Shown one piece after another: positions 4,368 to 12,402 of a DNA stretch of 12,402 bases. The notes beneath the pieces are model-generated. The model was not told where the DNA came from, made no database searches, and saw only the letters and a list, made by a program, of their open reading frames with translations. Position numbers and translations under genes: made by a program. Within the stretch, counting starts at the first letter, position 1. Each line of letters begins with the position of its first letter. The DNA is from Kiloniellales bacterium (GTDB lineage Bacteria; Pseudomonadota; Alphaproteobacteria; Kiloniellales; JAKSDN01): assembly GCA_022360075.1 (NCBI GenBank), contig JAKSDN010000060.1, positions 1 through 12,402 on the forward strand, written 5' to 3'.

Positions 4368-4676
4368 ATGGCTACGATTGGAAGCTTCACCGCCGGAAAA
4401 GACGGCTACACGGGAACGATCCGGACCCTGACGGTCAACGTCAAGGCCAAGATCGTCGCCAACGATCAGAAGAAGAGCGAGGGCGCGCCGGACTTCCGGG
4501 TCTATGCCGGTCGCGCCGAACTGGGCGCCGCTTGGAAGGCCCGCAGCAATGGAGAGGAGCCCCGCGACTATCTCAGCGTCCAGCTCGACGACCCGAGCTT
4601 CCCCGAGCCGATCCGCGCGGCGCTCTTCGAAGAGGATGGTGCGGCGTTCTTGGTATGGAACCGGCGGGAGGGGTAG
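4368..4676 (+). CDS. DUF736 family protein
   Basis: Small protein of 102 residues, recognised as DUF736 by its start ([20 protein letters not shown]) and its end ([10 protein letters not shown]). DUF736 proteins are frequent on alphaproteobacterial ICEs and plasmids; their function is not established. The sequence looks beta-rich, with no signal peptide or membrane helix. A near-consensus ribosome site, AAGGAGGT at 4353-4360, lies 7 bases before the ATG and overlaps the end of the DUF2274 gene, so strong translation is expected. In many elements DUF736 sits with replication or partition-type genes; here it directly follows DUF2274 at the end of the trb block, and the base composition changes just after it. 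Confidence 0.9.
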
Positions 4677-4794: not shown

Positions 4795-4806
4795 CGACAA
4801 TTGTCA
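4795..4806. promoter_or_regulatory. Operator copy 2 at the transcription start
   Basis: CGACAATTGTCA is the exact reverse complement of the first operator copy and holds the same 10-bp palindrome (4796-4805). It covers the expected transcription start, just downstream of the -10. The centres of the two sites are 29 bp apart, a little under three helical turns, which places them on nearly the same DNA face. Confidence 0.65.
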
Positions 4807-4817
4807 TGGAGGTGAGT

Positions 4818-5231
4818 ATGGTCGAATTCCATATTGTCGAGCAAGTGGCTCCGCCGCGCGTTCCAGGCTTTTCGAATGAGGAAGAACGCGCGATGCAGCG
4901 TGCTGTGATTGCCTTGTTTGAGCGCTGGGGACTGACTGACGCCGAGGCTTCGATACTACTCGGTGATATTTCCGCGCGCACGTTCCAGAGATGGAAGCAG
5001 GGGCAGTTGGGCCGGGTGAGCAATGACCTGGCAGCACGGCTTTCGAATCTTATGGGAATACACAAAGCACTACGCCTGCTCTTTGCAGAGAAGGAGCGTG
5101 GTTATGGCTGGATCAAGCGACCCAACGCGGCTTTGGGAGGCAAAAGCGCGTTAGACGTCATGCTCGGAGGGCAACTCACAGACCTGATGCGTGTGCGCCG
5201 TTACCTCGATACACAGCGCAGCCCTTGGTAA
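4818..5231 (+). CDS. Xre/MbcA/ParS-type antitoxin of a RES toxin
   Basis: Antitoxin of a type II toxin-antitoxin pair, 137 residues; expected to bind and inhibit the RES toxin encoded next and to repress the shared promoter. The N-terminal half (about residues 20-75) has a helix-turn-helix-like segment (LTDAEASILLGDISARTFQRW). The C-terminal half, beginning at about GIHKALRLLF, is the MbcA/ParS toxin-binding domain, with the family-typical NAALGGKSALDVMLGG and MRVRRYLDTQ stretches; in solved relatives the C-terminal tail blocks the toxin's active site. I chose the ATG at 4818, which has GGAGGTG just upstream. The in-frame ATG at 4806 would overlap the second operator, leave only a few leader bases and have no ribosome site. 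The toxin gene begins 8 bp after the stop. Confidence 0.9.
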   Translation: MVEFHIVEQVAPPRVPGFSNEEERAMQRAVIALFERWGLTDAEASILLGDISARTFQRWKQGQLGRVSNDLAARLSNLMGIHKALRLLFAEKERGYGWIKRPNAALGGKSALDVMLGGQLTDLMRVRRYLDTQRSPW

Positions 5232-5239
5232 AGGTTAGC

Positions 5240-5950
5240 ATGGTCGATGCGCCAACCAATCGCGTGAATTGGTCACGCTATATCCGCCTGATCAACTCGG
5301 CATATCCACCAATCGACCTTTTTGAGGATATCGCTGATCCCGCGGACTGGATGCTTCTCGGTGCGGCGGAGAGCAAGACCAATCCCCGCCACGCTGAAAC
5401 GATCGGAAACCTGGACCTGATTCCCCCAGAACGACGGGTTGGCGGCGAGGGTGCTTCATACGTTATGGCCCCATTCACGCACTGTTCGCCTGACAAGCCG
5501 GGCCGCTTCCATGATGGCATGTTCGGCGCTTTTTATGCCGCTGACAGTTTTGAAACGGCAGTCGCGGAAACAGTCCATCACACTTCGATATTTCTGGCCG
5601 CGACTAATGAAGATCCTGGCTGGATTTCCGATGAGCGTGAGCTGATCGGCGTAATCAATGCTGACCTAGTTGACATTCGAAAAGGTGACTTCGATGCGCT
5701 ACTAGATCCGAACAGCTACGTTGCATCGCAAGCCTTCGCTCGTGAGATTCGGCAGGAAAAAGGAGACGGTATCGTCTACCCCAGCGTTCGGCAGGCTGGA
5801 GGAGAATGTTTCGCCGCATTCTGGCCAGACGTCATGGAAGCACCAGTTCAAGGTCGACATATCAGCTACCATTGGAACGGAACGGATATCGATTTGATCC
5901 GCGAGTTAACTTTGAACGGTGACGGGCCAGTGTATCGCTTGGAACAGTGA
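5240..5950 (+). CDS. RES-domain toxin
   Basis: Toxin of the module, 236 residues. RES proteins fold like ADP-ribosyltransferases; characterised members either degrade NAD+ (MbcT, Res) or ADP-ribosylate phosphoribosyl-pyrophosphate synthetase (ParT), so growth arrest by attack on NAD or nucleotide metabolism is expected. The conserved residues are visible: Arg89 (GRF), Tyr99 (FYAAD), Glu110 (AVAET) and Ser182 (VYPSVR). An N-terminal extension of about 70 residues precedes the core (RVNWSRYIRLINSAYPPIDL), as in the RES group paired with ParS-type antitoxins. The ATG at 5240 follows an AAGG site; an upstream in-frame TTG at 5225 overlaps the antitoxin gene and is less likely. Base composition is clearly lower in G+C than in trb. 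Which of the two chemistries applies cannot be told from sequence alone. Confidence 0.92.
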   Translation: MVDAPTNRVNWSRYIRLINSAYPPIDLFEDIADPADWMLLGAAESKTNPRHAETIGNLDLIPPERRVGGEGASYVMAPFTHCSPDKPGRFHDGMFGAFYAADSFETAVAETVHHTSIFLAATNEDPGWISDERELIGVINADLVDIRKGDFDALLDPNSYVASQAFAREIRQEKGDGIVYPSVRQAGGECFAAFWPDVMEAPVQGRHISYHWNGTDIDLIRELTLNGDGPVYRLEQ

Positions 5951-5983
5951 AATGAACCGAGATCTAACACGGGAGAATCGTAA

Positions 5984-6002
5984 ATTATCAAGTCATTATC
6001 AA
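5984..6002. repeat. Direct repeat ATTATCAA x2 upstream of the nuclease-helicase gene
   Basis: ATTATCAA occurs at 5984-5991 and again at 5995-6002, exactly 11 bp apart (one helical turn), within the AT-rich 93-bp gap between the RES toxin gene and the nuclease-helicase gene. Phased short repeats of this kind can be a regulator's binding site. I see no strong promoter in the gap, so the downstream gene may be read from the toxin-antitoxin promoter, or from a weak promoter here. Confidence 0.35.
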
Positions 6003-6043
6003 CGCGCATTAAGCCAGAGTCGTCAAAATACTAGGCACCCGAA

Positions 6044-9000
6044 ATGAAACTCTCCAAAAGCAAGCTTTCGCAATATCTAAGAACCCGATGTGATCGCTCG
6101 CTCTATTTGTCGCTGCATTCAGAAGCGGAGCTTCGCCGCAAGACCCTGCCGGACCCGCTGACGTCGCGCCCTGGTGTGCGCCATCTCCGTGATTCCGGAA
6201 TCGAGTTGGAGCGAGCTTGTTTCGGTCGTTTGAAACGCGCGTTTGAAGGTTTATGCATTGGCGACGAAGGCGAGCCTGATGGTCATTGGGGCAATGCGGA
6301 AATGCAAAGGGGGTTGAACGCCCTGGCCGATGGGCCGGCCTTTTTGATCCATCCGGAATATGAACTCGAACGGGACCGGGCTGTGTTCTTGGCCAATCTA
6401 GGCGTTCCGCAGGATGCGACCGCGACGATACCGACGCTTGGCGCGCATATTCCTGACATCGTCGCCGTCGATCTCGGCCCTGTGGGAGATCGCGGTGGGC
6501 TGGACTACTGGGTCGCGCCGAATGGCGACCGCATCGCCCTGGAAGATAACGAAACTCGTCGGCGGTTGACGGTGATCGACATCAAGCACGCCCAGGAAGC
6601 CAATACGAGTTATGAATCCGAAGTCGCGCTTTACGCGGTCGCCCTCGCTAATTGGCTCGAAGCGCGCGGACTAGAGACACGCTATTACGTGTCGGCCGAC
6701 ATGTGCTTGTGGACCAATGGCGGTGTTGCTGAAGGTCGGTTCGCCGAGCGCACAGATGACGCGGACGCCAGCCAAGCCGAACGCCTCGCAGCGCTGCGTG
6801 AAGAGTTGTCAACCATCAACGCGCCGATCTACTTGCAGGCGATCCGCCGTTTCATGTCCGAGCAATTGCCTGATGTGATCGCTGCTGGTGATGCCGATTT
6901 TGAAAGCCTGGACTGGCATGTATGCTCGCGCTGCAGTTCCTGCGACTGGCTTGGGCATCGCGATTGGCTCGGCAGCGACGACCGGGCCCGCATCGAAGCC
7001 AATCCCGACGGCTATTGTTTCCCGAAGGCCGCGGCAGACGAGCATTTAAGCCGGGTGCCGATGATTACGCGCGGCGCTCGGCGGGTCCTGGAGGCCGATC
7101 AGGTCTCCACCGTGTCGGAGCTCGTGCGGACCACAGGCGATGAGGATGTGTTTCGCAAACATACGGGGCTGAAAAGCGACCGCCGGTCCTTGCCGGCTCT
7201 TGCGAGCGCAATTGCGACCGGCGAGAGCAGTATCGATGAAGAGCGCGCGGATGGTGGGCTCGCGCGATATGCTGATCTCGATGTGTTTATCTCGGTGAAT
7301 TTCGACGCCGGCGCCGGACAGTTAACGGGACTCGGTCTTGAGGGACGATTTCGACAGCATACGCCGTATGGCGAACAGTCGGACGTGCGCAGGACCTGGC
7401 AAGAGCAATGGATCGTTTCAGGGAAATCGGCGGCGTCGGAAGGCAGTTCGGTAAGGGCTTTTCTCAACTATCTCGCCGGCATCTATGATTGGGTGCGCGA
7501 TGAAAATCCGCAGCGCGGTGGCGAGCATGCGTCGAGAACGACTGCGCAACTTATCTTCTGGGACCAGCGCCAATATGAGGAGCTGTGCCTTGCTGTAGGG
7601 CGGCATTTGCCGGCGATCCTCTATGGCGACGAAGAGCGTACGGTCAAAGCGCTGGTGTGGTTGTTTCCGCCGGAAGAGATTCAGGAACGCGACGCGATAG
7701 ACGCAAAACGCCCCGGCGTCGCTTTTGTCAGCGACATTGTGCGCCGCCTCGTCCGCGCGCCGGCGCTGCACGAGCTGACCCTGTTCAATGTCGCCGAGCA
7801 TTATCATTGGGGTGATGATTTTCGCGTACCGGATTCGTTCTACCGCGAGCCTCTGTCTGACGCGATCCCGCGCGAGCGCATCTATGAGATCTGGAGTGCG
7901 TCGGCGGCGGGCGATGGCTATGTGGTGCGCTGGGGCTCTGTCCTGAAGGATCTCAGCCAATTGATGGATGGGTTCCGGCGGACCATGCGCACCCAGACGG
8001 CTGGGTTGCGCATGGTGGTCTGGAGGGTCCGGCAGGACTTCGGCAACCGTTTAAAGGCGGCTGCGCCGCAGCTTGATTTGACGGTGCCACGCTGGGGCGC
8101 CGGCGTCGCATTCGAAGCGAAACTCTGGATTGCTTGGGCATCGTTTTGCAAAGCCTATGACGACTTGATGGCGCAGCGGGATTTCCTAAGTGACCCAGAG
8201 GAAATCGAAGCGCGCTATGAAGGCTTGCGGCTCGAAAGCTTGGTCGCTGAAGAGGCCGACGGATCGCTGACCTTTTCAGTGTCTCCGGACTCGCGCGATG
8301 CCAAAGTGCGCATCCCAGCGGGCTTTCTGTGTCTTTCGCTCGACGACACGCCTGGGTTTTTAGTTCAACGCGTCCGCCAGGTTGTGGAGGATGCGGACTT
8401 GCCGCTCCATCTGCGCGATCTCAGCTTTACTAACCGGCCGATGAGCATGGTCTTCAAGGTCAAGCTCGTGGATTTCGACCGGGAGGCGCTCCGAGCCCGG
8501 ATCGAATGGGACAATTACTGGGACGACGAGAAAGACCTGCGCGCGGCGGTATTTCGTGCCCTGGGTGAGCGAGTGCGTCGGAATGTGACGATTGTCAGCT
8601 CGGCGGGGAGCAACGTCCAGGTGCGCCGCCTCACGAACACGCTGCGCGCCATCAGCAATCCCGCTATCGCGCAGCCGACGGAAGAAACCTTAACTGCGCT
8701 TGGGAAACGCGGCTCGCGGATCCGCGCGGGCGCGGCCCCGATGACGCCCGCGGCTGCTGCCCTCTGGGACAGCGTGAGCCTAAACACCGAACTGGCGCGT
8801 CTACCCGCGGATGCGGACGCTATAGCGGAGGCGGCAGCTGCGTCTTCGACGCCGCCCCTCAACACCTCTCAACGCAGCGCCATTGCCAACGCCGCGGCGA
8901 AACGATTGAGCGTAATTTGGGGGCCTCCCGGCACCGGCAAGACGCAAACTTGTGCGGCATTGGTTCACCAACTCGCCAATCATGAAGCGGCGCGCGGCGC

Positions 9001-10378
9001 CGCACGCACTTTCAACATTCTTCTAACCGGGCCGAACTATAAGGCGGTGAGCGAACTCGCCGAGCGGGTGATGCGGCGTATGGCAGGTGACGCAACAGCA
9101 AACGCAAATTGCTACATCATTCATCGCGAAGACCGCGAGGACGAGTTCGTCTTGCCCGAGGAAACCGGCTCTAGCTTTACCATTGAGATGACCCTGGCAG
9201 ATCGTCGCGCTCCGATCTTTGTTGAGATGATGGAAGCCCTTAACGGTGGCACCGGCGTCAACATCGTCGCCGCAGTTGCGCATCAATGTCCTCGCATCAC
9301 CGAACAGGCCGCGAAGCTTTATGATGATGAGGATGTCTTGCGACCGCTCTTCGATTTCGTGCTATTCGATGAAAGCTCGCAGGCCGATATGGCGATTTCG
9401 ATCCCACCGCTCGGTCTGTTGCGGGACGGGTTTCAGTTGGTGTTGGCTGGCGATCTGTTGCAGATGCCGCCTGTCGCGCGCTGCGATCCGCCCGTGGGCG
9501 CAGAGTTCCTAGTCGGCAGCATTCAGAATTATTTTGTCACCCGGTTTGGGATCGAGCAGGAAGAGTTGCTTACGAATTATCGGTCAGCCGATGAACTTGT
9601 TCAGTACATCAAAGGACTCGGTTATCCGACGGGGCTGGCAGCGGCGTTTCCGGATGCGCGATTGGCACCTCTTAGCGATCCGGCCGATCAAGCAGGGAAT
9701 TGCGCGCTCAACGATCTTTGTTGGTCTGACGCGTGGCCTCAGGTACTGGCACCAGAGAAACGCATTGTCGCCATCACCTATGATGACGGTGTGTCCGGCC
9801 AGGCGAACCCGTTCGAGGCGGATATGGTCATCTCGCTCGCCTTCTTGTTAAGGCAAACGATATCGGCCAAGCTCGCCGATCACAATGATCGTGGCGAAGA
9901 CGGCCCTTATGATGACGAAACTTTCTGGCGCGTTGGCGTTGGCGTCGTGACGCCTCACCGGGCGCAGCGCGCGATTGTGGTCCGCAAACTGCTAGAGGCG
10001 TTTCCGGACACGGACCCGGAGTTGATCGAGAACGCTGTCGATACAGTGGAGCGTTTCCAGGGCGGCGAACGCCACACCATCATCGTTTCTTTCGGCGTCG
10101 GCGATCCCGATGTGATCGCTGGCGAAGAGAAGTTCCTTATGCAATTGGAACGAACCAATGTGGCGGTGTCACGGGCGATGGCGAAATGCATCGTCTTGCT
10201 TTCGGAGGATGTTGCCGGGCATATTCCAACAGACCGAGACGCAATCGAAACCGCCCATGCTCTAAAGGGCGTCGTCGATGAATGGTGCAAGGACAGGATT
10301 GACGCTACGGTGGTTTCGGCGCATGGGTTCGAGCGCGCCATCGCCGTGCGAACGCGGCCAGCGTCAGATGAGGCGTAA
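6044..10378 (+). CDS. Large nuclease-helicase: RecB-like PD-(D/E)XK nuclease fused to SF1B helicase
   Basis: A 1444-residue protein predicted to unwind and cut nucleic acid in the cytoplasm. The N-terminal nuclease (about 1-340) resembles the TM0106-type RecB family: Asp138 in IPDIV, then Asp179 and Lys181 in VIDIK, and a following helix YESEVALYA. Cys16 in YLRTRCDRSLYL plus Cys294, Cys297, Cys300 and Cys325 resemble the Fe-S cysteine pattern of Cas4, AddB and Dna2 nucleases. Residues 405-540 look like a degenerate RNase H/YprB-like domain; about 540-900 is not recognised. The C-terminus is a Dna2/Upf1-like SF1B helicase: Walker A GPPGTGKT with Lys966, DESSQ at 1109-1113, GDLLQMPP at 1136-1143, NYRS at 1178-1181, RFQGGE ending at 1342, and NVAVSRA ending at 1378. 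It is much longer than a plain helicase. The ATG at 6044 starts right at the conserved N-terminus, with only a weak TAGG ribosome site. The end overlaps the convergent methyltransferase gene by 15 bp. A defence role is inferred from context. Confidence 0.9.
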   Translation: MKLSKSKLSQYLRTRCDRSLYLSLHSEAELRRKTLPDPLTSRPGVRHLRDSGIELERACFGRLKRAFEGLCIGDEGEPDGHWGNAEMQRGLNALADGPAFLIHPEYELERDRAVFLANLGVPQDATATIPTLGAHIPDIVAVDLGPVGDRGGLDYWVAPNGDRIALEDNETRRRLTVIDIKHAQEANTSYESEVALYAVALANWLEARGLETRYYVSADMCLWTNGGVAEGRFAERTDDADASQAERLAALREELSTINAPIYLQAIRRFMSEQLPDVIAAGDADFESLDWHVCSRCSSCDWLGHRDWLGSDDRARIEANPDGYCFPKAAADEHLSRVPMITRGARRVLEADQVSTVSELVRTTGDEDVFRKHTGLKSDRRSLPALASAIATGESSIDEERADGGLARYADLDVFISVNFDAGAGQLTGLGLEGRFRQHTPYGEQSDVRRTWQEQWIVSGKSAASEGSSVRAFLNYLAGIYDWVRDENPQRGGEHASRTTAQLIFWDQRQYEELCLAVGRHLPAILYGDEERTVKALVWLFPPEEIQERDAIDAKRPGVAFVSDIVRRLVRAPALHELTLFNVAEHYHWGDDFRVPDSFYREPLSDAIPRERIYEIWSASAAGDGYVVRWGSVLKDLSQLMDGFRRTMRTQTAGLRMVVWRVRQDFGNRLKAAAPQLDLTVPRWGAGVAFEAKLWIAWASFCKAYDDLMAQRDFLSDPEEIEARYEGLRLESLVAEEADGSLTFSVSPDSRDAKVRIPAGFLCLSLDDTPGFLVQRVRQVVEDADLPLHLRDLSFTNRPMSMVFKVKLVDFDREALRARIEWDNYWDDEKDLRAAVFRALGERVRRNVTIVSSAGSNVQVRRLTNTLRAISNPAIAQPTEETLTALGKRGSRIRAGAAPMTPAAAALWDSVSLNTELARLPADADAIAEAAAASSTPPLNTSQRSAIANAAAKRLSVIWGPPGTGKTQTCAALVHQLANHEAARGAARTFNILLTGPNYKAVSELAERVMRRMAGDATANANCYIIHREDREDEFVLPEETGSSFTIEMTLADRRAPIFVEMMEALNGGTGVNIVAAVAHQCPRITEQAAKLYDDEDVLRPLFDFVLFDESSQADMAISIPPLGLLRDGFQLVLAGDLLQMPPVARCDPPVGAEFLVGSIQNYFVTRFGIEQEELLTNYRSADELVQYIKGLGYPTGLAAAFPDARLAPLSDPADQAGNCALNDLCWSDAWPQVLAPEKRIVAITYDDGVSGQANPFEADMVISLAFLLRQTISAKLADHNDRGEDGPYDDETFWRVGVGVVTPHRAQRAIVVRKLLEAFPDTDPELIENAVDTVERFQGGERHTIIVSFGVGDPDVIAGEEKFLMQLERTNVAVSRAMAKCIVLLSEDVAGHIPTDRDAIETAHALKGVVDEWCKDRIDATVVSAHGFERAIAVRTRPASDEA

Positions 10379-11521
10379 ATGCGCGTCGAATTCGGTTTCG
10401 GCGGTGTCGGGATCGCGCATTTGCGCCGCCTGTCGACGGCCCTTCGAGGCGGTCGACGCGCATTTCGTATAGACTCGTTTCCAGTCATATTTGCTTTCTT
10501 CAAAGGACTGGAACAAAAGCTCGCGCGCATCGATCTTGCGCGACGGCAGGACGCCAAAGCGCACAAACATATGTAAATTATCGCCTGCATGCGCGCCGAT
10601 CCGATCCCAGACTTTCGCGAGGCCTTTGGCGAAGACGTCAGGTGATGAACTTGGCACGCGTCCGTCATCGCTGTAATCGACTGTGTCTGGTCCTCCAACA
10701 AACCAATTGCGCAGCCATTGATCGGGCACATAAGTGCGCATGCCGTAGTATGGCGGTGATGTGACGACCGCGTCGATGCCGGCGGGGGCGTATTTCCAGG
10801 TGGACGGCTCGCCGGCGTCGCCGTGGACGACGTCGGCGAGCCTGGTCTCTTGAAAGTGGAAGGCCGGTGAACGGAACACGTGATTGGCCTTGCGCTCGAT
10901 CGCGGCGAGCACATCGATCTTCGGCGCTTTCATATCGCGCTCATTCCAGAACCGAATGGCGTAATCGGGTTTCGGCGCGAAGGTGCGTTGCATCTGATTC
11001 GAAAGATAGCTGCCAACGCCGGTGACGGGGCCGTGCAGGACACCCATCACGATGGCGCGCAGAATCGCTGCCTCGGGCGATGCATCGGCCAACAGACCCA
11101 TTCGCAGGACGCAAATCTTTTTGAGGACGCTAGGCTTGTAAGCAAGCCGCCAGAAGCGTCCGTGCGGCAAGTCGACATCATCAGAACGCTCCAAGAGCTT
11201 GCGCGCGAGATCGAGGACATCGCTTTTCGAAGCGGTGGCGAGCTTCGCTTTGGATATGGCGACGGCGACGGGGGAGCAGTCCACACCAAAGGTTTTGCGC
11301 TGTGTGGCGCGCGCCGCGTAAAGGGTTGTGCCGCGCCCACAAAAAGGATCGACGACGATTCGCGCATCCGGAACGCGACTCAGCGCACTTAAAGGGAATT
11401 CGAGTGGGAACATCGTAAAATAAGGACAGATCGCGTTGAGGGAATGACGCGGATCGTACGCTGCCGGAAGTGGCATGGGCTGGGTCTCTATCCTCTTTGC
11501 ATGGCTGTGCTCAAACTCCAC
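10364..11521 (-). CDS. DNA methyltransferase (amino-MTase, N4-cytosine or N6-adenine)
   Basis: S-adenosylmethionine-dependent DNA methyltransferase of 385 residues. Motif I is DPFCGRGTT at 58-66, with GVD at 79-81 as the next strand; the catalytic motif IV is TSPPYY at 254-259. SPPY-type motifs belong to enzymes methylating the exocyclic amino group of cytosine (N4) or adenine (N6); which base cannot be decided here. A segment before motif I (CPYFTMFPLEFPLSAL) resembles the PYPA-like lead-in of related methylases. About 190 residues separate the two motifs and may hold target recognition. The GTG at 11521 is used, with AGAGG about 11 bases upstream; an ATG at 11476 (residue 16) is a reasonable alternative. 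The gene is convergent with, and overlaps by 15 bp, the nuclease-helicase gene, suggesting the two form one module, with methylation perhaps marking self DNA. Confidence 0.88.
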   Translation of the reverse strand: MEFEHSHAKRIETQPMPLPAAYDPRHSLNAICPYFTMFPLEFPLSALSRVPDARIVVDPFCGRGTTLYAARATQRKTFGVDCSPVAVAISKAKLATASKSDVLDLARKLLERSDDVDLPHGRFWRLAYKPSVLKKICVLRMGLLADASPEAAILRAIVMGVLHGPVTGVGSYLSNQMQRTFAPKPDYAIRFWNERDMKAPKIDVLAAIERKANHVFRSPAFHFQETRLADVVHGDAGEPSTWKYAPAGIDAVVTSPPYYGMRTYVPDQWLRNWFVGGPDTVDYSDDGRVPSSSPDVFAKGLAKVWDRIGAHAGDNLHMFVRFGVLPSRKIDARELLFQSFEESKYDWKRVYTKCASTASKGRRQAAQMRDPDTAETEFDAHLRLI

Positions 11522-11817: not shown

Positions 11818-12402
11818 CTAGGAGGCGGCGGCTGACATCGATATCCCGTCAGCGATCCGATCGGCTGCCGACTTGATTGGATCATTCGCTAGATGTGCGT
11901 AGCGGGCGGTCGTCTGGATTTGTGAGTGCCCCAACAGCTTTCCGATCATTGGCAGGCCTTCGCCGACAATCAGGCCACGGCTGGCAAATGAGTGCCGAAG
12001 GTCGTGGAGCCGCACATCGTCGAGACCAGCCGTTTTTCGAATGCGTCTCCAGGGATGCTGAAGATCTGTGAGGCGGCCTCCGGGCTTCTTTCCTGTAATG
12101 ACGAACTCGTTGTCCTCAAGCTTGGTGATCGCCTTGAGCCGGTCAATCGCCGCCGTACCGAGATGAACGGTCTTGGCACCCGTTTTGGAGTCGGGCAGGC
12201 GTAGCTCCTTAGCTTCGAGATCAACAAAGTCCCACTTCAAGGTCATGATCTCATTCAGCCGGCAGCCCGTCAGCATCAGCAGCCAGATCGCATTGATCGC
12301 TGACTGGGTTTCAGTCTTTTCGGCCTCAGCTTTGCGGAGCGCCTCGCCGAGCCGCTTATACTCTTCGTCGGAAAGAAAACGCTCACGCTTTTCCTCTTTG
12401 TA
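11818..12402 (-). CDS. Tyrosine recombinase/integrase (C-terminal catalytic part, cut by window edge)
   Basis: Site-specific recombinase of the phage integrase family, expected to excise and integrate the element at its att sites. The frame is open to the right edge, so the N-terminal arm- and core-binding domains are outside the window; 194 residues are visible, starting within the catalytic domain (ERFLSDEEYKRLGEAL). The full catalytic set can be seen: Arg in LTGCRLNEI, Lys in DSKTGAK, His and Arg in LHDLRHSFAS, His in LLGHSQIQTT and the nucleophile Tyr in ARYAHL. The C-terminus ends IADGISMSAAAS with a TAG stop. Residues resemble integrases found on alphaproteobacterial genomic islands. 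The gene reads inward, toward the cargo and trb genes, the usual orientation for an integrase next to its att site, which would then lie right of the window. Confidence 0.93.
   Translation of the reverse strand, partial: YKEEKRERFLSDEEYKRLGEALRKAEAEKTETQSAINAIWLLMLTGCRLNEIMTLKWDFVDLEAKELRLPDSKTGAKTVHLGTAAIDRLKAITKLEDNEFVITGKKPGGRLTDLQHPWRRIRKTAGLDDVRLHDLRHSFASRGLIVGEGLPMIGKLLGHSQIQTTARYAHLANDPIKSAADRIADGISMSAAAS

Follow-up and report, generated by a model that had tools for sequence, protein, structure and literature searches.

We report here that a nuclease-helicase gene and an adjoining DNA methyltransferase gene, located in a 12,402-nt stretch of Kiloniellales DNA (contig JAKSDN010000060.1; this entire stretch is called the window), appear to represent an undescribed restriction-modification-like family in which the effector resembles a DNA-end-resection machine. 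We put the probability of this reading, which is built on sequence comparisons, at roughly 0.7. The nuclease-helicase will be referred to as NucHel. The original prediction, made from the window alone, had described a 1444-residue nuclease-helicase positioned tail to tail with an SPPY-type methyltransferase on the opposite strand, as cargo of an integrative and conjugative element (ICE) between trb genes and an integrase. All of these features were recovered in our examination of the window: the NucHel reading frame carries both nuclease and helicase domains, the methyltransferase contains a TSPPY motif, the 3' ends of the two genes overlap, and the flanking genes are those of such an element (Table 1).

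The association of the two genes is recurrent. A methyltransferase gene directly adjoins NucHel in 19 of 20 distinct NucHel-anchored loci, so that homologues of the two proteins were found side by side rather than apart, and the nuclease is consistently coupled to a DNA methyltransferase as in a restriction-modification-like system. Seventeen of the 20 NucHel genes are full-length, one is truncated by its contig (L056), one is split over two contig ends (genome G489) and one is interrupted (L004). The loci were drawn from plasmids (3 of 33 records, at ≥80% coverage: L001, L002 and L004), from GTDB contigs (5 full-length among 39 loci listed, L005-L009, a lower bound obtained with generic Walker patterns) and from IMG/VR (at least 1 locus in a first scan with generic Walker patterns, and 12 in a narrower scan with complete listing, where L110 and L111 are one cassette and L044 is the same as L106). 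The 30 remaining plasmid records and 34 remaining contig loci, which were partial or mainly helicase-only matches (L011 is also truncated by its contig), were left out; none of the three methyltransferase classes described below was found within the excluded loci L010-L014 and L019. Nor was any of the three found in the 16-kb locus L004, from the Methylorubrum extorquens AM1 megaplasmid, where the NucHel relative (5968-10390) is interrupted by a frame change.

Among sampled genomes NucHel was present in 0 of 385, 1 of 398 and 1 of 369, with G489 as the positive genome in both of the latter samples. Of 9 records in a control search 8 were matched and the remaining one is a plasmid with the methyltransferase only, so the rarity of NucHel looks real; a further search with the L009 protein as query gave no match. 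Also, 25 contig sizes were common to the best 120 of 253 NucHel matches and the best 120 of 4380 methyltransferase matches, where 0.56 would be expected. With one contig per cluster represented in each row of this check, the shared contigs amounted to 3 of 12 at ≥60% NucHel identity, 18 of 26 at 45-59%, 2 of 24 at 40-44% and 2 of 58 at 36-39%.

Three methyltransferase classes accompany NucHel. Class A, that of the window, occurs in 14 of the 19 methyltransferase-bearing loci, convergent with NucHel in 13 and on the same strand in L065; the 3' ends in the window and 13 loci range from a 19-bp overlap (L063), with the window at 15 bp, to a 20-bp gap (L049). What we take to be the beta class lies upstream of NucHel in two loci (L008, 216 bp away, and L115, 2 bp away), the two enzymes being 43.7% identical. 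The third class, of ~690 residues and presumably DUF1156-like, is related to PADLOC DUF1156_MTase/HmaB and was found upstream in L006 and L009 and downstream in L116 (39-48% identical). Matches of the latter two classes to the window methyltransferase cover only 27-80 residues around motif I. On the NucHel tree, class A forms one 100/100 clade and the beta class another, with one change each; the ~690-residue class needs 2 changes and forms a single group in 40% of bootstrap trees, and L063 and L116 are long branches. As judged from this tree, the three classes largely follow NucHel descent, the grouping of the ~690-residue class being weaker. Both genes gave dN/dS values of 0.05-0.13 in the close pairs L007/L059 and L057/L061; in more distant pairs dS was saturated or unreliable. 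We considered whether the L008 methyltransferase belongs to the adjoining type III-like operon, which is less likely because L115 has the same class in the same place with no such operon seen in the locus. Downstream of the ~690-residue-class pair in L009 (L009:13316-17411) lie genes for a 266-residue protein and a DEAD-box helicase, of which Pfam recognizes only the helicase; we take these to be Hachiman-like.

When the methyltransferase was used as the anchor, other partners came into view. We counted 22 loci with a near full-length enzyme at least 40% identical to the query used: 15 distinct of 34 IMG/VR loci, 4 genomes (G489 and G668, with 3 of 398 matching; G760 and G867, with 3 of 369 matching) and 3 plasmids. 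Left out were 18 of the 34 IMG/VR loci (short, partial or <40%), 16 of 19 plasmid records and G444 (32%). The partner is NucHel in 12 loci, NurA-HerA in 4 (L048, L070, L090 and L091) and a DUF262-like protein in 3, with none recognized in 3 (L003, L062 and L071, the latter two being cut off on one side where the contig ends). The NurA assignment is weak (PF09376 in 3 of 4 members, best 1.8e-4), and the NurA candidates of these loci gave no match in the PDB; HerA in L048 matches DUF87 at 1.5e-19. NurA-HerA with this methyltransferase is possibly a second undescribed restriction-modification-like arrangement. On a methyltransferase tree of 28 rows, which included one very long row (L074), the NurA-HerA label requires 4 changes, at least 3 of them forced by starred branches, and clusters no more strongly than shuffled labels; L048 falls inside the NucHel-paired clade, at ~76% identity. 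These observations suggest that NucHel and NurA-HerA are exchangeable partners of subtype A methyltransferases.

The partner in L064, L068 and L069 is ParB-superfamily-like and was read as DUF262; it matches PADLOC NsnA and PD-T4-2_A in L064, was judged by eye in the other two, and in L068 is accompanied by a HerA fragment. These loci (L064:4794-8350, L069:4102-7628 and L068:7995-12212) comprise the methyltransferase, the ParB-like protein and a partner of ~280-360 residues, with a second methyltransferase in between in L068. More distant methyltransferase relatives, in L050 (32%; 6816-10088) and L072, stand beside a ParB-like protein that resembles PD-Lambda-5_A; the L050 protein matches PADLOC PD-Lambda-5_A/PDC-M38A, and its 366-residue neighbor has no PADLOC or Pfam match.

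Exchange of partners could also be followed between close relatives. The methyltransferases of L060 and L061 are 92% identical and their NucHel proteins 40% identical. One flank is 82.6% identical over 2840 bp, spanning the methyltransferase, the far flank and ~325 bp of the NucHel 3' end, and the other, 146 bp lying past the NucHel start, is 89.7% identical; L060 is a 7.3-kb IMG/VR contig, and a chimera is possible that would require two crossovers near the gene ends. The reverse case is seen in L065 and L005, where NucHel is 62% and the methyltransferase 46% identical and the orientation has changed. That one nuclease-helicase family occurs with several methyltransferase classes, and one methyltransferase family with several resection-type machines, argues for functional coupling rather than hitch-hiking. 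With the methyltransferases 92% identical and the effector swapped, pressure to change would seem to act on the nuclease side as well as on the specificity side.

The domains of NucHel are in keeping with an end-resection enzyme. Its N-terminal nuclease has the PD-(D/E)XK residues D138, D179xK181 and E193xxxY197, and a conserved pattern of one N-terminal and three later cysteines (Cys 16, 297, 300 and 325), predicted to bind an Fe-S cluster; in sequence it thus has the features of the Dna2/Cas4/AddB-type Fe-S nucleases. The middle, DnaQ-like domain retains D421, and has DxG in place of the usual DxE, so its exonuclease activity is doubtful. The C-terminal helicase, which we take to be of the SF1B subgroup of superfamily 1 (SF1), gave PDB profile matches to NAM7/UPF1, SMUBP2 and DNA2. 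A Foldseek search with a 925-residue NucHel model returned no match at E≤0.001, and the structural domains were separable only by VIA-align.

The methyltransferase has invariant residues in motif I (D58, P59, F60, G62, R63, G64 and T65) and motif IV (T254-Y258, within TSPPYYG), the motif numbers being those that we presume to apply. Pfam PF01555 matches it at 9.1e-8, and its probable start is the ATG at 11476 rather than the 11521 end, near where close homologues begin. The TSPPY motif suggests an amino-methyltransferase, acting on N6-adenine or N4-cytosine. The structure model (predicted local distance difference test score 85.7) has a Rossmann methyltransferase fold, and its top structural matches are tRNA, rRNA and small-molecule Rossmann methyltransferases; since the model resembles many such enzymes, the fold is uninformative on DNA target or base.

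In the scheme that we favor, the methyltransferase would mark a short motif on resident DNA, and NucHel would engage DNA without this mark, or ends formed on such DNA; its motor would unwind the DNA and the Cas4-like nuclease would degrade it, an action closer to that of RecBCD, AddAB or Dna2 than to that of a site-cutting type II enzyme. Most of the ATP-dependent restriction enzymes described so far are driven by SF2 motors. We infer methylation, protection, helicase polarity, sensing of unmodified DNA and anti-phage activity alike for this pair. That the methyltransferase would shield self DNA from NucHel is a proposal that gains strength from the three methyltransferase classes with which NucHel recurrently pairs and from the exchange with NurA-HerA. 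The further generalization, to a resection-engine restriction family with at least three methyltransferase-defined subtypes, in which subtype A recruits either NucHel or NurA-HerA, methylation-gated resection is general and the engines are interchangeable, has in our estimate an even chance of being right. If the scheme is true, a Cas4/AddB/Dna2-related effector, with NurA-HerA as its alternative, would link the resection of DNA ends with self/non-self marking, in a family that two genes suffice to test.

Several observations weigh against this scheme. Eleven IMG/VR contigs are part of the NucHel sample, near-duplicates exist (L007/L059 at 94% and L057/L061 at 93%), so the 20 loci are not all independent, and the GTDB contig loci are a lower bound. 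The split NucHel of G489 may be broken, and the methyltransferase is still present. No target-recognition domain was recognized in NucHel, and its DnaQ-like domain lacks the usual DxE. From the convergent arrangement and the reshuffling it follows that a single specific complex of the two proteins is not required. Also, 10 of the 22 methyltransferase-anchored loci are without NucHel (two of them contig-cut on one side), and the dependence is therefore one-way. Finally, 8 of 14 other subtype A pairs adjoin restriction or BREX genes, and NucHel could be an accessory to these.

The last two points lead to the rival that survives best, although we regard it as unlikely: NucHel would be a stand-alone end-dependent degrader, or a BREX or type III accessory that clears broken phage DNA, and the methyltransferase an anti-restriction enzyme and frequent neighbor. 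Defence genes lie just upstream in at least 8 of 14 other subtype A loci. NucHel directly follows BrxL in L007 (with PglX, PglZ and BrxL) and L059 (with PglZ and BrxL); a type III-like Mod and a putative Res of ~900 residues precede it in L044, L057, L061 and L066, and in L005 with one extra gene between Res and NucHel. L060 retains a 56-residue remnant of that Res gene at its contig end. The putative Res is weakly recognized by PADLOC in L066 (1e-6) and not in L005, and we name it by its position and motifs. Elsewhere, L005 has a PDC-S06 protein, L002 has Septu PtuA ~4 kb away and L001 an annotated anti-phage dGTPase. On three plasmids that carry more distant full-length homologues, two of them haloarchaeal and one from Chlorohelix, none of the three methyltransferase classes was found within the loci examined. 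Against the accessory role, a methyltransferase from one of three classes is retained at 19 of the 20 NucHel loci, among them pairs with no adjoining restriction system, such as that of the window, which is not beside restriction or BREX genes; moreover, replacement in place by another methyltransferase class is not what one expects of a passive neighbor.

A slightly less probable alternative, which bears on novelty only and is compatible with the restriction-modification-like reading, is that the pair is an already described defence system. We searched PADLOC (2023 version), NCBIfam (June 2026) and Pfam, together with a mostly openly accessible literature by several narrow all-term queries; the age of the PADLOC version and the partial coverage of the literature leave room for this alternative. 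The contention that the pair fits no named system held throughout. Neither protein reaches the cut-off of any NCBIfam model, PADLOC matched only the helicase region of NucHel and assigned the methyltransferase to generic type II models (best 1.8e-17, among the 25 of 48 matches listed), and no such pair was found in the literature searched, including papers on YprA/ARMADA (PMC12458937), BREX (PMC12839542), EVE (PMC7641849), PD-lambda-5 (PMC9519451) and m4C restriction-modification (PMC10855626).

Scans of the window also agreed with the earlier statement that no separate restriction enzyme, specificity subunit or known BREX or DISARM part is visible in it. HsdS was not found among the scanned proteins of these 12.4 kb (a subunit elsewhere is possible), and the NucHel helicase is of the SF1 AAA_11/AAA_12 type, not an SF2 HsdR (ResIII 0.0048, below cut-off). 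There is no type III Mod-Res among the window proteins, type III-like genes occurring only as neighbors elsewhere. We rejected membership in BREX, as no PglZ, BrxC-type ATPase or PglX was found among the scanned window proteins and BREX lies only beside L007 and L059, and in DISARM, as no DrmA or DrmB occurs among the 15 PADLOC families for NucHel or the 25 of 48 methyltransferase matches listed. DpdJ, the best PADLOC match of NucHel (residues 931-1428, 1.4e-36, profile 39-493 of 2112 residues), was rejected as well, since only the helicase region is covered and no other dpd gene was recognized in the window.

Among single proteins, the closest architecture is that of a bifunctional RecB nuclease/DEAD-DEAH helicase family, presumably "TM0106-type" (for example, Salinibaculum WP_302083894; hhalign with NucHel 7-1407, probability 100, E 4e-56). 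It has the same order of nuclease and AAA_11/AAA_12 helicase, and the homology takes in the nuclease, the middle domain and the SF1 helicase; identity is ~21%, however, and none of the three methyltransferase classes was found in three loci examined. Dna2 shares the N-terminal PD-(D/E)XK nuclease and C-terminal SF1B helicase (5eaw, 1.2e-22, residues 928-1379), and its nuclease has a cluster-like cysteine pattern; NucHel differs in its extra DnaQ-like domain, larger middle region and methyltransferase partner, and the structural match reported for its nuclease is Cas4, not Dna2. NurA-HerA has the same methyltransferase family as partner and is unrelated to NucHel as an effector, which suggests a swap between resection-type machines. 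Hna (PMC13381803), an anti-phage protein, unites a helicase and a PD-(D/E)XK nuclease in one chain, as NucHel does; it is described there as a single effector whose SF2 helicase is N-terminal and whose nuclease is C-terminal, and we rejected membership because the domain order is reversed and the NucHel helicase is SF1. In UvrD-Cas4 fusions (PMC5704561), which were proposed to act in defence, a Cas4-like nuclease is joined to an SF1 helicase, and one of their contexts has the cytosine methylase Dcm as neighbor; their helicase is UvrD-like and the methylase Dcm, whereas NucHel has a C-terminal UPF1/AAA_11-12 helicase and a TSPPY methyltransferase.

Maintenance of the mobile element (ICE repair or replication, the methylation serving to label the DNA of the element itself rather than to defend against phage) is very improbable, for although the loci are on an ICE, plasmids and IMG/VR contigs and the Dna2 and AddB relatives are repair enzymes, the pair recurs in elements that are unrelated to one another, where it adjoins BREX, type III-like and PDC-S06 genes and has Septu nearby, and NucHel is rare, unlike core maintenance genes.

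Table 1. Positions of genes, domains and motifs in the window
Feature	Position	Strand	Remarks
trbL, trbF, CagX/TrbG-type gene, trbI, DUF2274, DUF736	last one ends at 4676		trb-type integrative element backbone
Xre/MbcA/ParS antitoxin	4806-5231	+	PF09722; upstream of NucHel
RES-domain toxin	5225-5950	+	PF08808, 2.4e-35; just upstream of NucHel
NucHel gene	6044-10378	+	1444 residues; Cas4-like nuclease, DnaQ-like domain and SF1 helicase; proposed restriction effector
NucHel residues 1-334	6044-7045	+	Cas4/AddB/Dna2-type PD-(D/E)XK nuclease
NucHel residues 409-725	7268-8218	+	DnaQ/RNase H-like 3'-5' exonuclease fold
NucHel residues 931-1428	8834-10327	+	SF1 (UPF1/Dna2-like) helicase; AAA_11/AAA_12
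Walker A, NucHel residues 960-967	8921-8944	+	GPPGTGKT
Overlap of convergent 3' ends	10364-10378		15 bp
DNA methyltransferase gene, subtype A	10364-11521	-	385 residues; probable start ATG at 11476
Methyltransferase motif IV	10748-10762	-	TSPPY; catalytic, amino-methyltransferase type
Methyltransferase motif I	11327-11350	-	DPFCGRGT; S-adenosylmethionine binding, near N-terminus
Integrase	11818-12402		reads inward from right edge of window

As ICE cargo, the window pair would defend the host of the element. Its only other cargo neighbor of note is the Xre/RES toxin-antitoxin pair, and NucHel and the methyltransferase can therefore stand alone. The ICE backbone of the window is 86% identical to that of genome G001 up to base 4666, beyond which the G001 cargo is unrelated, and G+C content in 600-base windows is 62-74% before this boundary and 52-65% after it. 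The boundary (G001 locus L102) falls sharply after DUF736, and the G001 cargo past it has by eye the look of what we take to be a LodA-type oxidase cluster.

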